Below are positions 12,967 through 64,000 of a stretch of 64,000 nt of DNA, piece by piece. The translations under genes were made by a program, and so were the position numbers. The stretch's first letter is position 1. Each line of letters opens with the position of its first letter. Origin of the DNA: Rahnella woolbedingensis (lineage in GTDB: Bacteria > Pseudomonadota > Gammaproteobacteria > Enterobacterales > Enterobacteriaceae); contig NZ_RAHH01000014.1 of assembly GCF_003602095.1 (NCBI RefSeq), forward strand, positions 62,001 through 126,000, given 5' to 3'. A model generated the notes under the pieces. It did not search any database, was not told the DNA's origin, and worked only from the letters and a program-made list of their open reading frames with translations.

Positions 12967-13283
12967 ATTGCCTCAGTTATGCCCCTCAGGCCTGACTTGC
13001 TGATTATTTGCTCACCGGCATATCACTTAATCCTAAATTTAAAAAAATGCGTGGCGTATCTGAGGTCTTTTTGTACGTGAGTTTCTGATTACCTGTAAAT
13101 TGCAGTCTGTCCCGCAATGTAAAACGATATTGTGCGCAGGGCATAAACTATTCATTGCTAATAGTTGAAGGGTCGTATTAGATTCTCACACATACTTTTC
13201 TTAGAATGATCATTGCTTTTTTTGCTTCAGGCTGCTGAATTTTCACTGATTTGGCAACCCTGCTTATGGCTGAAGGAATTCCG
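12967..13283. other. Intergenic region upstream of bglX
   Basis: 317 bp, AT-rich, without a convincing ORF. It must hold the bglX promoter, but I do not see a clear operator or recognisable activator site. Confidence 0.5.
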
Positions 13284-15581
13284 ATGAATACGCATCACGT
13301 GCTTGGCGCGTTAGTGTTACTGGTAAGTTCTGCTTCTTCGCTCGCCGTCGAAACGACGGGCATCCCCCAGGATCAGGTAAAAGAGCGCAATGCGTTCATT
13401 GCTGACCTGATGAAAAAAATGACCATAGATGAAAAAATTGGTCAGCTGAATCTGGTCACTGTGGGGCCGGATTATCAGAAAGAAGCCATTATGGCTGACA
13501 TCCGCGCCGGCAAAGTCGGTGGCGTGTTTAATACCGTCACAAAGCCAGATATTCGCCGTATGCAGGATCAGGTGAAAGAAAGCCGCCTGAAAATACCTCC
13601 GTTTTATGCCTATGACGTGGTGCATGGTCAGCGCACTATTTTCCCTATCAGTCTTGGCCTTGCCGCCAGCTGGGATATGCAGGCCGTCGCCACCAGCGCA
13701 CGTATTTCAGCGCTGGAAACCGCAGCTGATGGTCTGAATATGACCTTCTCGCCGATGGTTGATATTACCCGTGATCCGCGCTGGGGCCGTGTCTCCGAAG
13801 GTTTTGGTGAAGACACCTACCTGACTTCCCGCCTCGCGCATGAAATGGTGACGGGTTATCAGGGGAAAGACCCTTCCGCACCTGATGCTGTCATGGCTAA
13901 CGTCAAACACTATGCGCTGTACGGCGCTGTTGAAGGCGGGCGCGAATACAACACCGTGGACATGAGTCCCACCCGCATGTTCAACGATTACATGCCGCCG
14001 TATAAAGCGGCCGTTGATGCCGGTGCCGGTGGCGTGATGATTGCGCTCAACAGCGTTAACGGTATTCCTGCGACCTCAAATACCTGGTTGCTGAAAGATA
14101 TTCTGCGTGATGACTGGCAGTTTAAAGGCCTGACGGTGAGTGACCACGGCGCCATCGGCGGCCTGGTTAAACACGGCGTGGCCGAAGATGATCGTCAGGC
14201 TGCTGCCATGGCGCTCAAGGCCGGTGTCGATATGGACATGGCCGACAACATGTACGGTAAGTACCTGAAAGGATTGCTCGCCGACGGTCTGGTCAGTCAG
14301 CAGGATATTGACCGCGCCGTCCGTGACGTTCTGGCCGCGAAATGGGACATGGGGTTATTTGTCGATGAATACCGTCATTTAGGCCCGCAGTCGAGCGACC
14401 CGGCGGACACCAATGCCGAAAGTCGTCTGCACCGCCCTGAAGCCCGCGAAGTCGCGCGCACTTCGCTCGTCCTGCTGAAAAATACCAACCAGACGTTGCC
14501 CTTACAGAAAAAAGGCACCATCGCCGTGATTGGCCCGCTGGCCGACAGTAAACGCGATGTGATGGGCAGTTGGTCCGCCGCCGGTAAAGCGGCTCAGGCC
14601 GTGACCGTGTTGCAGGGGATGAAAGACGTCCTCGGCGATAAAGGCACATTGTTATACGCCCGCGGTGCGAACATCACCAACGATCAGGGGATGGTCGACT
14701 TCCTCAATTCCTACGACAAGCAGGTCATTAACGACCCGCGTAAACCCCAGGACATGATCGACGAAGCGGTAAAAACAGCCGAGAAATCAGACGTCGTGGT
14801 GGCCGTAGTGGGCGAAGCACAAGGCATGGCGCACGAAGCGTCCAGCCGTTCTGACATCAGCATTCCGCAGAGCCAGCGCGACCTGCTCAAAGCCCTGAAA
14901 GCCACCGGTAAACCGCTGGTGATTGTGCTGATGAATGGCCGCCCTCTGACGCTGACGTGGGAAAACGACATCTCCGACGCCATGCTGGAAACCTGGTTCA
15001 GCGGCACCGAAGGCGGTCACGCCATTGCAGACGTTCTGTTTGGCGATTACAACCCGTCAGGCAAACTGCCGATGACCTTCCCGCGCTCGGTCGGACAAAT
15101 TCCGCTGTATAACAGCGTGCTCAATACCGGTCGTCCGTTTAATCCACAGCATCCGGATAAATACACCACCCGTTATTTCGATATCACCAACGGTCCGTTG
15201 TTCCCGTTTGGTTATGGCCTGAGCTACACAAGTTTCAGCGTGTCTGACGTGAGCCTTTCATCAACCACTATGGATGCGAAAAATCCCCTGACCGCCAGTG
15301 TGACGGTGAAAAATACCGGTAAAGTCAGTGGTGCTACCATCGTCCAGCTGTATCTGCAGGATGTCACGGCGTCCATCAGTCGTCCGGTGAAAGAGCTGAA
15401 GAACTTTGAGAAAATCAATCTGCAACCGGGTGAAGAGAAAGTCGTGACCTTTACTGTCAACGAAAGAGATTTGCGTTTCTACAATGACAAGCTGAAATGG
15501 GCCTCTGAACCTGGAAAATTCAACGTATTCGTGGGTTTAGATTCTCAGGATGTGAAGAAAACCAGCTTCCTGCTGAAATAA
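13284..15581 (+). CDS. bglX: Periplasmic beta-glucosidase BglX (GH3)
   Basis: 765 aa from ATG 13284, exactly the length of E. coli BglX. A TTG 33 bp upstream keeps the frame open, but AAGGA lies 8 nt before this ATG and a signal peptide starts here (MNTHHVLGALVLLVSSASSLAVE). Three GH3 parts: barrel domain with the nucleophile in TVSDHGAIGG (D287), alpha/beta sandwich with SDVVVAVVGEAQGMAHEASSR, and a C-terminal fibronectin-III-like domain. Hydrolyses beta-glucosides in the periplasm. Monocistronic, followed by two hairpins. Confidence 0.95.
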   Translation: MNTHHVLGALVLLVSSASSLAVETTGIPQDQVKERNAFIADLMKKMTIDEKIGQLNLVTVGPDYQKEAIMADIRAGKVGGVFNTVTKPDIRRMQDQVKESRLKIPPFYAYDVVHGQRTIFPISLGLAASWDMQAVATSARISALETAADGLNMTFSPMVDITRDPRWGRVSEGFGEDTYLTSRLAHEMVTGYQGKDPSAPDAVMANVKHYALYGAVEGGREYNTVDMSPTRMFNDYMPPYKAAVDAGAGGVMIALNSVNGIPATSNTWLLKDILRDDWQFKGLTVSDHGAIGGLVKHGVAEDDRQAAAMALKAGVDMDMADNMYGKYLKGLLADGLVSQQDIDRAVRDVLAAKWDMGLFVDEYRHLGPQSSDPADTNAESRLHRPEAREVARTSLVLLKNTNQTLPLQKKGTIAVIGPLADSKRDVMGSWSAAGKAAQAVTVLQGMKDVLGDKGTLLYARGANITNDQGMVDFLNSYDKQVINDPRKPQDMIDEAVKTAEKSDVVVAVVGEAQGMAHEASSRSDISIPQSQRDLLKALKATGKPLVIVLMNGRPLTLTWENDISDAMLETWFSGTEGGHAIADVLFGDYNPSGKLPMTFPRSVGQIPLYNSVLNTGRPFNPQHPDKYTTRYFDITNGPLFPFGYGLSYTSFSVSDVSLSSTTMDAKNPLTASVTVKNTGKVSGATIVQLYLQDVTASISRPVKELKNFEKINLQPGEEKVVTFTVNERDLRFYNDKLKWASEPGKFNVFVGLDSQDVKKTSFLLK

Positions 15582-15583
15582 CT

Positions 15584-15662
15584 TTCCGGGTCTGAAAGCA
15601 GACCCGGAATGCAGTCAGCAGTTTCTCTCACAGGCGGAATTCCGGCTAACGGAACCCGCCTG
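15584..15662 (+). repeat. Two tandem hairpins downstream of bglX
   Basis: First: TTCCGGGTCTG (15584-15594), loop AAAG, CAGACCCGGAA (15599-15609), perfect 11 bp. Second: CAGGCGG (15631-15637) with CCGCCTG (15656-15662), inside which TTCCG (15640-15644) pairs with CGGAA (15650-15654). Neither has a U-tract, so they may block exonucleases or serve Rho-dependent ends rather than act as intrinsic terminators. Confidence 0.6.
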
Positions 15663-15864
15663 TTCTGAGCAGTAATTTCTGTCCGGTGACTGGATATATA
15701 ACCGACAGTTGCTAACCTTAAATTCAATGTGTTACGCCTTCCTGTTCTGTATCCGCTCATTGCGGAGCGGTGCGGGTGTGCTGAGCAGAGTAAACTCCGT
15801 CTGTGCTGACTGTCGCCTTGTCGCCACACTGGCGGCGTATAGCGTTCTTTTCGGAGAAACATTC

Positions 15865-17883
15865 ATGGTCGATTCTCAAGATGCCTCCATCCTGTACCTG
15901 CATTTTGGTACGCCCCGCCCATATTGGCGAGTGGGTTCTGACAGCAATGCACTGGAGCTTTCTGCTGAAAAGGGCGTCGTAAATGTGGCTATATCCCTGA
16001 CCCAATGGCAGGCAGGAAAAATCAGGCAACTGACCGGGATCACCTCAAGTTTCACACTGGACATCACTCTGTTCGGTTCTCCGGTGCGCCTTTATCTTGT
16101 CGGCCGGAAAATTGACAGCAAGGCCTGGGCGGGCACCGCATCGGCGTATCAGGATACAGAATCTGTCGCGCACGACCTTGAAGTCGGTCTGACCTTCGCC
16201 GAACAGGTGGTTTCCGAAGCCAACTCCGTGATTGTGATTATCGATCAGGAGGGCAAGATCCATCGTTTTAACCGGCTGAGCGAAGAATATACCGGCCTGC
16301 GAGAAGAAGATGTCATTGGCCGCAGTGCTTATGATCTTTTCATGTCGATGGAAGAAGGTCTGGCATCACGCCAGAACATCAACGGTTTTTTTCAGCATCA
16401 GCAATCCTACGAAGTAGAACGCTGGATCAATACGGTTAAAGGCCAGCGGCTGTTTCTGTTTCGCAATAAATTCGTCCACAGCGGCAGCGGCAAACAACAA
16501 AAATTTCTGATCTGCTCCGGTTCCGACATCACTGACGAGCGCAAGGCGCAGGAACGTCTGCGCGTGCTGGCCAACACCGATTTGGTTACCGGTTTCGCTA
16601 ACCGTAACGCGTTGCAGGAATCCCTGGCAAGAGCCCTTCTTGAGCGCGGCGAAAATAAAGTCGGGCTGATTTATCTGGATCTGGATAACTTCAAAAAGGT
16701 GAACGACGCTTACGGTCATATGTTTGGCGATCACCTGCTGCGGGCGGTGTCTGATGCCATTCAGGATTGCCTGTCGCCTAACGATAAGCTCGCGCGCCTC
16801 GGCGGCGACGAATTCATTATTCTGAGTACTCAGGCAGAACTGTGTACGCTGGAAGCACTCAGCCAGCGCGTGCTGCGCCGCCTGAGTCTGCCATTTCGTA
16901 TTGGCCTCATTGAAGTCTATACCGGCTGTTCCGGCGGCATCGCGATTTGCCCGGAGCACGGTATTGACGGCGATACGCTGTTGCAAAACGCCGATACCGC
17001 CATGTATGTGGCGAAAGAAAAAGGCAGAAATGCGCACTGTATTTTCTCGCCGGATATGAATGAAAAAGCCTCAGAATACATGTGGCTGGATACGCATTTA
17101 CGTAAAGCACTGGCGGAAAAAGATCAGCTGGTTTTGCACTATCAGCCGAAAGTGTCACTTTATGGCACCGTGCAAAGCGTGGAAGCACTGCTGCGCTGGA
17201 ATTCGCCGGAACGCGGGCTGATCCAGCCACAAAGTTTTATCCCGTATGCCGAAGAATCTGGCCTGATTACGCCCATCGGCAAATGGGTCATTGAAACCGC
17301 CACCCGTCAGGCGACCGAGTGGCAGAAAAAAGGGCTGAATCTGCGCGTGGCCGTGAATCTTTCCGGACGTCAGCTGAATAACGGTTCGTTTATTACCACA
17401 CTGTCTGACGCCATGAAAAAAGCCGGTATGAAAGGCTGTCTGCTCGATTTTGAACTGACAGAAAGCTGTCTGGTGGAAGACGAAGGCGCAGCAGTCGCCA
17501 TGATAAACCAGCTGCATAAACTCGGCGCTCAGGTGCATCTGGATGATTTCGGTACCGGCTATTCTTCTCTGTCCCAGCTGGCGCGAATTCCGCTCGACTG
17601 CATCAAGCTGGATCAAAGTTTTGTCCGCGGGATCAATGACAATCCGGTTTCGCAGGCGCTGGTGCGGGCGATTGTGGCGGTGGCTAAAACCCTGCAACTG
17701 ACGGTGGTGGCGGAAGGTGTGGAAACGGCGGAAGAAGAGAAGTTAATTGACGAAATCGGTGTGGACAGCAAACAGGGCTTTCTTTACGCCAAACCAATGC
17801 CCGCAAAGGAACTCGAGCACTGGCTTGAGGAAAAAATGGTTGCTTCACCCAATGTCTTTAAACATAAAGCAAAACAGAAATAG
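15865..17883 (+). CDS. rpfR: DSF receptor and c-di-GMP enzyme RpfR (FI-PAS-GGDEF-EAL)
   Basis: 672 aa from ATG 15865 (GGAG 9 nt upstream); a TTG 156 bp earlier keeps the frame open but is a poor start. Order: N-terminal RpfF-interaction (FI) domain about 1-100; PAS about 115-225 (SVIVIIDQEGKIHRFNRLSEEYTGL), which in RpfR binds the fatty-acid signal; GGDEF with intact GGDEF at 313-317; EAL with EALLRW at 440-445 and DDFGTGYSSLSQL. RpfR of Burkholderia and Cronobacter lowers c-di-GMP when it binds BDSF. E. coli PdeR (Gmr) has the same layout and is the alternative name; the convergent rpfF 29 bp away favours RpfR. Confidence 0.88.
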   Translation: MVDSQDASILYLHFGTPRPYWRVGSDSNALELSAEKGVVNVAISLTQWQAGKIRQLTGITSSFTLDITLFGSPVRLYLVGRKIDSKAWAGTASAYQDTESVAHDLEVGLTFAEQVVSEANSVIVIIDQEGKIHRFNRLSEEYTGLREEDVIGRSAYDLFMSMEEGLASRQNINGFFQHQQSYEVERWINTVKGQRLFLFRNKFVHSGSGKQQKFLICSGSDITDERKAQERLRVLANTDLVTGFANRNALQESLARALLERGENKVGLIYLDLDNFKKVNDAYGHMFGDHLLRAVSDAIQDCLSPNDKLARLGGDEFIILSTQAELCTLEALSQRVLRRLSLPFRIGLIEVYTGCSGGIAICPEHGIDGDTLLQNADTAMYVAKEKGRNAHCIFSPDMNEKASEYMWLDTHLRKALAEKDQLVLHYQPKVSLYGTVQSVEALLRWNSPERGLIQPQSFIPYAEESGLITPIGKWVIETATRQATEWQKKGLNLRVAVNLSGRQLNNGSFITTLSDAMKKAGMKGCLLDFELTESCLVEDEGAAVAMINQLHKLGAQVHLDDFGTGYSSLSQLARIPLDCIKLDQSFVRGINDNPVSQALVRAIVAVAKTLQLTVVAEGVETAEEEKLIDEIGVDSKQGFLYAKPMPAKELEHWLEEKMVASPNVFKHKAKQK

Positions 17884-17912
17884 CGCCAGTGACGGGCCAT
17901 TTCTGTCCGCTG

Positions 17913-18779
17913 TTAGCCGGTTTTACGCAATGACGCCGTATGCCGGTTTTGCAGCATGACCAGACGCTCCATATAACTCAGGTCTTTCTCCTCCAGCGTA
18001 AATGCGGCATCCACCCAGTCCTCCGTAATATCCATCAGCTCGGAACGTGATAGTTGCAGCACGCGCTGGCGCGCGCGGATCATCGCGCGGATCCCGTTAA
18101 GCTTTGGTCGCAGCACATCCATAAAGGTACGCGTGGCATTGAATGCCTCACCCGGCTGGAACAGCACATCCACAAGCCCGCGGCTTTCAAACCATTCCGC
18201 AGTATGAGATTCACCGGTGGAAATCAGTTCCTCCGCCAGTTTCATACCCCCCTTGCGCGATACCAGCGAATAACCGCCCATTCCCGGAAAGAGGTTAAAC
18301 GCAATTTCAGGAAATCCCATCCGGGCCGTGTTTTGTGCCAGTACGTAATGATGCGCGAGCGCCGCTTCGAATCCGCCGCCCAGCGCCGTTCCTTCAATCA
18401 TCGACAAGCTTATCGCCCCCACATCAAATCCGCGCGCCGCGGCATGAACACAGTCCACACAGGCTCTGGCGTAGGACCGCAACGCTTCGCGCTTATTATT
18501 GACGATGGAGTCGACAAAGAAACTCAGATCACCTCCCACATTGTACATATTGGGCACCAAAGAACCCGTGACCCAAAAATCGAAACGCAGCCCCGATGCC
18601 TTAGCGGCATAGGTCAGCGTCATGATGTCCTCAATGAGGTCCTGATTAAAACATGGACGTGGATAAGACCTGAGCATCATCCACATGACATTACGGCCTT
18701 CTTCATAATAGGCTGCAATCTGGGACAAATGCCCGGCTTCGGTAAACGGGCGGCAGGCTGTATGGTCAATAAGATTCAT
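17913..18779 (-). CDS. rpfF: DSF-family signal synthase RpfF (crotonase fold)
   Basis: 288 aa (Xanthomonas RpfF 289). Crotonase-superfamily enzyme that acts on 3-hydroxyacyl-ACP as dehydratase and thioesterase, releasing a cis-2-unsaturated fatty acid (DSF/BDSF). Both catalytic glutamates of the RpfF subfamily are in place 20 residues apart: E138 in GGGFEAAL and E158 in MGFPEIAFNLFPGMGGYS, like E141 and E161 of Xanthomonas. Ordinary enoyl-CoA hydratases lack this FPGMG context. ATG 18779 has a weak ribosome site, but family length supports it. It converges with rpfR and diverges from fadH. The chain length of the product cannot be read from the sequence. Confidence 0.92.
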   Translation of the reverse strand: MNLIDHTACRPFTEAGHLSQIAAYYEEGRNVMWMMLRSYPRPCFNQDLIEDIMTLTYAAKASGLRFDFWVTGSLVPNMYNVGGDLSFFVDSIVNNKREALRSYARACVDCVHAAARGFDVGAISLSMIEGTALGGGFEAALAHHYVLAQNTARMGFPEIAFNLFPGMGGYSLVSRKGGMKLAEELISTGESHTAEWFESRGLVDVLFQPGEAFNATRTFMDVLRPKLNGIRAMIRARQRVLQLSRSELMDITEDWVDAAFTLEEKDLSYMERLVMLQNRHTASLRKTG

Positions 18780-21213
<2,434 letters not shown>

Positions 21214-63885: not shown

Positions 63886-64000
63886 GCTGTTATGACAGCA
63901 GTTCACGCCGATCAATATCCGAGCTTCTCACTACATTCTCGCGACTAATGACAATCCTTATATACCTGGCAATGTGGCAATAAAGTCTCTCATTAGCCGC
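63886..64000 (-). promoter_or_regulatory. pnp leader with RNase III-type stem-loop
   Basis: On the minus strand GCGGCTAATGA (64000-63990) pairs with TCATTAGTCGC (63951-63941), 11 bp with one G-U. CTTTAT and ATATAAG can extend the helix inside. A smaller stem GCTGT/ACAGC lies at 63886-63899. E. coli pnp mRNA has such a leader, cut by RNase III and then used for PNPase autocontrol. rpsO, expected further upstream, is outside the window. Confidence 0.7.

Follow-up and report, generated by a model that had tools for sequence, protein, structure and literature searches.

A predicted BDSF-type RpfF/RpfR pair in Rahnella and the kinship of its receptor with Escherichia coli PdeR

The 64,000-nucleotide stretch of Rahnella woolbedingensis DNA analysed here (the window) encodes a convergent rpfR/rpfF pair, i.e., a predicted synthase of the diffusible signal factor (DSF) family and a predicted cyclic di-GMP (c-di-GMP) enzyme that would serve as its receptor. 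Both genes are intact in this Rahnella genome of 5.46 Mb (113 contigs), and the coordinates and strands that a first-pass annotation had read from the sequence are correct, as is the gap of 29 bp between the genes (17884–17912). The same annotation had proposed a DSF-type system; this assignment, more closely to the Burkholderia DSF (BDSF) type, is supported, since full-length homology to solved proteins, residues, domain order, linkage and phylogeny agree. We put the probability that the pair works as outlined below, including an output on curli and cellulose, at about 0.88. Taken by itself it is an ordinary instance of a known system in one more genome, and a Rahnella RpfF homologue is listed in a 2026 review. 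The more interesting result comes from the comparison with receptors encoded without a synthase (orphan receptors): judged by tree and position, the much-studied biofilm enzyme PdeR (YciR, Gmr) of Escherichia coli is an RpfR orthologue without RpfF.

15865–17883, plus strand: rpfR, 672 amino acids, with FI (about residues 1–95), PAS (114–224), GGDEF and EAL domains; predicted c-di-GMP enzyme and BDSF receptor
15865–16149, plus strand: FI (RpfF-interaction) domain, residues 1–95, after PDB 6dga and 6dgn; E 2.3e-22 to 6dga
16204–16536, plus strand: PAS domain of the BDSF-binding type, residues 114–224, after PDB 6dgg and 6dgj; E 8.9e-49 to 6dgg
16801–16815, plus strand: GGDEF motif, residues 313–317
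17182–17199, plus strand: EALLRW motif, residues 440–445
17884–17912, no strand: convergent spacer, 29 bp from stop to stop
17913–18779, minus strand: rpfF, 288 amino acids, ATG start; DSF-family synthase by homology, with E138, E158, F44 and F88

Residues 1–285 of RpfF align with the RpfF structures 6dgn (455 bits) and 5fus (452 bits), with E about 1e-135 for either, both of which represent the Burkholderia cenocepacia protein (PMC6361424). These are followed by 7zq7 (149 bits), whose deposit title reads 'crotonase/enoyl-CoA hydratase family protein', and by 3m6m ('RpfF protein', 146 bits); all other listed structures score 53 bits or less. Full-length homology to solved RpfF, with scores above those of ordinary crotonases, places the protein in this family, although it carries the Pfam domain ECH_1 (crotonase fold) as well, and against the NCBIfam model PRK08788 it reaches 403.5 bits (cut-off 177). 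The two catalytic glutamates and the FPGMG context pointed out in the first-pass annotation are present (E138, E158, and FPGMGG at 164–169), as are F44 and F88 of the tunnel; these two phenylalanines and both glutamates are invariant in all 98 distinct RpfF compared. Among the matches listed, the nearest RpfF-bearing contigs all belong to Rahnella species and encode proteins of 98–99% identity, which marks the genome as a Rahnella on this measure, and relatives beyond the own clade share about 68–79%. In a midpoint-rooted RpfF tree, the Burkholderia-type proteins group with those of the Serratia/Yersinia type (97/88), which may reflect transfer between these groups.

The start of rpfR was placed at the ATG at 15865, which lines up with the first residue of solved RpfR (PDB 6dga); the listed open reading frame (ORF) opens upstream, at the TTG at 15709. 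The description of the product as a PAS-GGDEF-EAL protein with an additional N-terminal domain, the architecture of RpfR, holds: the FI and PAS domains match those of solved RpfR, and the GGDEF and EAL domains exceed their Pfam cut-offs with both motifs intact. BDSF (C12) is contacted in Cronobacter RpfR by S169, N172, Y183, R187 and N202 (PMC6361424), and all five residues are kept in the window, as S168, N171, Y182, R186 and N201. The protein thus combines an FI domain, a PAS domain with the S/N/Y/R/N contacts, intact GGDEF and EAL domains and convergence with rpfF, as expected of this receptor. NCBIfam labels it 'cyclic di-GMP phosphodiesterase' (PRK10060, 1079.6 bits). A second gene of the RpfR/PdeR type was not found in the own genome, where the next best relative is 35% identical.

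Linkage of the two genes was compared in the 80 best-ranked of 354 relatives (the named loci), which were fetched by RpfF alone, and in 29 further family loci that were selected for the presence of both genes and of which five duplicate named records. A convergent rpfR adjoins rpfF in 80/80 named loci, and in 109/109 with the added ones; as the named loci were fetched by RpfF alone, this adjacency is not a matter of chance. It persists in no fewer than three types of neighbourhood and whatever the spacing, which in the 109 loci extends to 1,689 bp at one end and to an overlap of 89 bp at the other. All 105 distinct paired RpfR retain S168 and N171; R186 and N201 are retained in 104/104, the truncated row L068 ending before these two positions. 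Co-occurrence points the same way: an order-wide draw of 295 genomes, searched with thresholds of E <=1e-60 for RpfF and E <=1e-120 for RpfR, contained RpfF in 13 and RpfR in 15; among 149 family genomes the numbers were 30 and 44. Every RpfF-bearing genome also had RpfR (13/13 and 30/30), and 14 genomes of the family had RpfR alone. At the DNA level, rpfR was matched in 5,372 of 5,426 E. coli genomes, and the five matches listed are annotated as pdeR.

Some loci depart from the usual layout. Beside a full-length rpfF match, rpfR is short or frame-broken in L072 (Pantoea dispersa), L076 (Pantoea conspicua) and L068 (Yersinia pekkanenii); judged by eye, the gene in L072 runs into a membrane-protein-like reading frame, which may be an assembly fault. 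A gap of 1.3–1.7 kb separates the two genes in two family genomes (L113:5000–6690 and L117:4984–6485), and in L113 it contains an ORF of 275 amino acids that looks kinase-like by eye, together with a small membrane-like ORF.

The pair occupies different genomic sites. In the window it is flanked by two genes, the left one outside the system and the right one not evidently part of it:

13251–15581, plus strand: bglX, left neighbour, kept in the Rahnella clade
19177–21213, plus strand: 2,4-dienoyl-CoA reductase of the fadH type (Pfam Oxidored_FMN and Pyr_redox_2); right neighbour, divergent from rpfF

The pair lies beside bglX in 18 of the 80 named loci, all of them of the Rahnella clade (Rahnella, Ewingella, Rouxiella, Chimaeribacter, Edaphovirga, 'Hafnia psychrotolerans' and two records named only Enterobacterales), and fadH follows in 16 of these 18, where the contig extends far enough; in the fetched flanks of loci outside this clade fadH was not found. 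Among the 29 paired family loci, four have the bglX/fadH site, 21 the site of E. coli pdeR, recognised by rnb, yciZ, osmB, yciH or pyrF in the fetched stretch, and four (Serratia/Yersinia type) lack the markers of either. Twelve of the 14 orphan loci were fetched, leaving out G316 (completeness 49) and G344 (match at the contig end). All 12 of these receptors, like pdeR of E. coli K-12, lie at the rnb-yciZ site with yciZ directly behind the receptor gene (rnb being off the contig in one), and in paired genomes with yciZ at the rnb site rpfF sits between rpfR and yciZ. In a receptor tree built from the GGDEF-EAL columns only, with five Burkholderia-type rows as the root, K-12 PdeR and the other 12 orphans nest within an rnb-site clade of 34 rows (100/100), in which one starred group of 27 rows comprises 14 paired and 13 orphan receptors (99/93). 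To explain the orphan state, the best tree needs seven changes, and a count restricted to starred branches leaves a minimum of three; the tree gives their number, not their direction. Loss of the synthase is favoured over its gain because the orphans nest among paired receptors and share their site. A search for an rpfF relic in the 12 orphan loci, K-12 being outside that search, returned no match at E 1e-6.

The first-pass annotation had contrasted RpfR with a protein orthologous only to PdeR. This is no valid alternative, because E. coli PdeR is one of the RpfR receptors that lack RpfF. Accounts of the E. coli protein fit in with this: a conserved rpfR homologue (gmr) and the absence of a DSF synthase are described for E. 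coli in PMC6361424, and PMC9684580 puts the identity at 54%. A limited literature search did not find a published account of positional orthology between pdeR and rpfR, or of FI and PAS decay.

Such decay was measured as summed terminal-branch length relative to GGDEF plus EAL on a fixed topology. For FI, the relative length is 2.40 in the 13 orphans, compared with 1.11 in the 21 paired receptors of the rnb site and 0.74 in nine from other sites; the values for PAS are 0.66, 0.25 and 0.27, respectively. Permutation of the labels over the 34 tips of the rnb clade, with tips taken as exchangeable and inner branches left out, gave p 1e-4 for FI and 5e-4 for PAS. Faster evolution of both domains relative to the catalytic ones where RpfF is absent is therefore well supported. 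The ligand contacts show a similar tendency: a key contact among S168, N171, R186 and N201 is altered in 9 of 13 orphans vs none of the 105 distinct paired receptors. The changes affect S168 (4), N171 (3) or R186 (2, with leucine at this position in K-12 PdeR); four orphans are unaltered at these three positions, and Y182 and N201 are retained in all 13. When the change of ligand residues was tested conservatively, by independent pairs, for association with a missing RpfF, there were three supported pairs, of which a mean of 2.9 had the expected direction, and the outcome was not significant (p 0.25), so that the link of residue change to the lack of RpfF is suggestive. For E. coli PdeR, these results suggest what its PAS and N-terminal domains were originally for and offer a reason why its ligand is unclear, namely that the synthase is missing and that K-12 has a leucine in place of the carboxylate-contacting arginine.

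By analogy with characterised relatives, RpfF, as an enzyme of crotonase fold, would convert 3-hydroxyacyl-ACP (ACP, acyl carrier protein) to cis-2-acyl-ACP. Hydrolysis of the latter by RpfF would set free a cis-2-unsaturated fatty acid, with cis-2-dodecenoic acid as the most likely product. The FI domain of RpfR would bind and restrain RpfF; accumulated acid would then bind the PAS domain, raise the phosphodiesterase activity of the EAL domain and lower c-di-GMP.

The output is inferred more weakly. Within the CsgD pathway of E. coli, YciR (PdeR) is an inhibitor of DgcM (YdaM), and it also breaks down c-di-GMP (PMC9684580). In Cronobacter, c-di-GMP was 3.9-fold up in the rpfR mutant and 3.4-fold in the rpfF mutant, and expression of csgA and bcsA was raised in these mutants, complementation restoring the latter only partly (PMC4698668). 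The own genome encodes a DgcM orthologue (54% identity, residues 3–407 of 410), an MlrA-like protein, CsgD (60% identity, over its cut-off) with csgE over and a CsgB-like gene below the cut-off beside it, and two cellulose synthases over their cut-off. As RpfR is orthologous to PdeR and these proteins are present, the DgcM/MlrA/CsgD (curli) and cellulose module may be its target, and with the Cronobacter mutant phenotypes taken into account its repression at high signal is the leading candidate. DgcM at E <=1e-70 was found in 15 of the 149 family genomes, all 15 of which have RpfR (7 paired, 8 orphan; hypergeometric p 1.6e-9, uncorrected for kinship). The corresponding MlrA search was positive in 42 of 44 RpfR genomes and is not used as evidence, because it admitted several MerR-type paralogues per genome.

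Several observations weigh against this interpretation. RpfF reaches 180 bits against the NCBIfam model NF053515 'diffusible signal factor synthase RpfF', the cut-off of which is 550. One rpfR-linked RpfF each from Burkholderia (185), Yersinia (191) and an Enterobacter-labelled record (177 bits) fail likewise, and hence the model represents another RpfF branch and its cut-off is not regarded as defining for the BDSF-type branch. The contact Y182 is replaced by H in one paired receptor (L051). On the output side, the MlrA-like protein (45% identity, 231.7 bits) is below the MlrA cut-off of 417, and 23 of 30 paired genomes lack DgcM at the above threshold, so that DgcM is no general output of the pair. 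Finally, wild-type Cronobacter turicensis failed to trigger a biosensor under the conditions tested (PMC4698668), which makes release at signalling levels doubtful.

The last point leads to the most serious rival, in which the pair is chiefly intracellular: FI would throttle a promiscuous acyl-ACP thioesterase and RpfR would sense fatty acids made in the same cell, while export and signalling within the population would be minor. Inhibition of the RpfF thioesterase by FI and cleavage of many acyl-ACPs by RpfF (PMC6361424) agree with this as does the silent biosensor, but B. cenocepacia exports BDSF, its extracellular level rises on FI deletion, and the residues whose mutation blunted the response to BDSF in that species (PMC6361424) are invariant in paired receptors; we consider it unlikely, yet deserving attention. 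It is also rather improbable that the signal is another DSF-family acid (e.g., cis-2-decenoic or branched) with the remainder as proposed. Chain length is unreadable from sequence and the identity of RpfF to relatives outside its clade is limited, as given above, but cis-2-dodecenoic acid is favoured by the close resemblance of the PAS domain to the one solved with BDSF, and of RpfF, in which both tunnel phenylalanines are kept, to its B. cenocepacia counterpart.

The readings that sever the pair fare much worse. An ordinary PdeR-type phosphodiesterase with RpfF as a functionally unlinked bystander would suit the PRK10060 label and the 14 of 44 RpfR genomes without RpfF; strict convergence, the fact that RpfF was not once seen alone, and the faster evolution of FI and PAS in its absence make it very improbable. 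Barely credible is a CoA-linked enoyl-CoA hydratase of beta-oxidation, to which the crotonase fold with ECH_1, the divergent fadH neighbour in the Rahnella clade and the deposit title of 7zq7 might point. Solved RpfF score 455, 452 and 146 bits, the best crotonase below these and 7zq7 only 53, and fadH is missing from the fetched flanks beyond the clade; scores against solved structures and NCBIfam models disfavour this identity.

Returning to the BDSF-type pair, we tentatively propose, at somewhat less than even odds, that RpfR receptors whose synthase was lost repeatedly at one fixed site (pdeR-yciZ) gave rise to E. coli PdeR and its kin, their FI domains and BDSF contacts then decaying faster than the catalytic domains. 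Rahnella, which keeps an undecayed receptor together with DgcM, would thus feed a diffusible fatty acid directly into the DgcM-MlrA-CsgD curli switch. If true, this environmental genus unites signal synthesis, receptor and DgcM-CsgD output in one cell, a combination lost in E. coli and absent from B. cenocepacia.

The closest known system is RpfF/RpfR of B. cenocepacia (Bcam0581/Bcam0580), which shares the convergent genes, the fold and residues of RpfF, the FI-PAS-GGDEF-EAL receptor and the BDSF contacts, but has another neighbourhood. Homologues of the YciR partners were not found in B. cenocepacia H111 (PMC9684580), whereas Rahnella encodes an orthologue of DgcM along with a protein resembling MlrA. 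C. turicensis has the same pair, and the FI and PAS domains that have been solved come from it; the loci compared here include none named Cronobacter, and 21 of the 29 paired family loci are at rnb-yciZ, whereas the window has the pair between bglX and fadH. E. coli PdeR, orthologous by tree and position and with the same four domains, differs in the absence of RpfF, in an FI domain only 37% identical to that of the window and in the K-12 leucine noted above. RpfF of the RpfF/RpfC/RpfG system, represented by 3m6m (presumably from Xanthomonas), is a DSF synthase of the same wider family, but the window protein is far under the NCBIfam RpfF model cut-off. The Xanthomonas receptor is a hybrid kinase with an HD-GYP regulator (PMC4698668), i.e., of another type than RpfR.

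Upstream of rpfF lies a further conserved feature:

18819–18837, minus strand: conserved promoter-like element upstream of rpfF; matrix consensus CTGGATTAGGCTG-N7-TGC, around TAGGCT

Eight Rahnella-clade loci show much stronger conservation immediately ahead of rpfF than over most of the interval between rpfF and fadH. A motif search with one site per row in 19 chosen representatives, two of them Burkholderia-type, placed a site 49–58 bp before rpfF in 19/19 rows, with TA(G/C)(G/T)CT preceded by CTGGAT and followed by TGC. Its mean score was 22.3 vs a maximum of 11.2 in 60 shuffles, a difference inflated by related rows, by a site being forced in every row and by 25 starts for the shuffles vs 150. 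Six Serratia/Yersinia-type rows tested with this matrix gave no match. A refined matrix was applied to 110 upstream regions, which include five duplicates and the 19 used in training, and located the element at -65 to -40 in 82 of them; the 28 without it are 25 of the Serratia/Yersinia type, L010, L113 and L132. It is thus common to the Burkholderia-type and most non-Serratia/Yersinia Enterobacterales loci compared. In the window, which helped to build the matrix, no other site scores as high (25.1, the second reaching 13.4), and no relic was detected in K-12 and the 12 orphan loci, where scores did not exceed 10.1. The element could act as an operator or form a core promoter; for B. cenocepacia, binding of RqpR to the promoter of rpfF has been reported (PMC12838280).

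A scan of 15560–19200 for terminators and sigma-70 consensus sites gave site numbers not above those of shuffles. A FadR-like site, searched between rpfF and fadH, had no match in 18780–19176, and the 19 matches in the window are as many as chance would give. Before fadH, at about 19083–19097, there is a CRP-like palindrome, tgatacgtatcaca, that is partly conserved in the clade. At gathering thresholds, an Rfam scan of the window returned only the small RNA SraG, whose match at 63924–64000 is cut by the window end.

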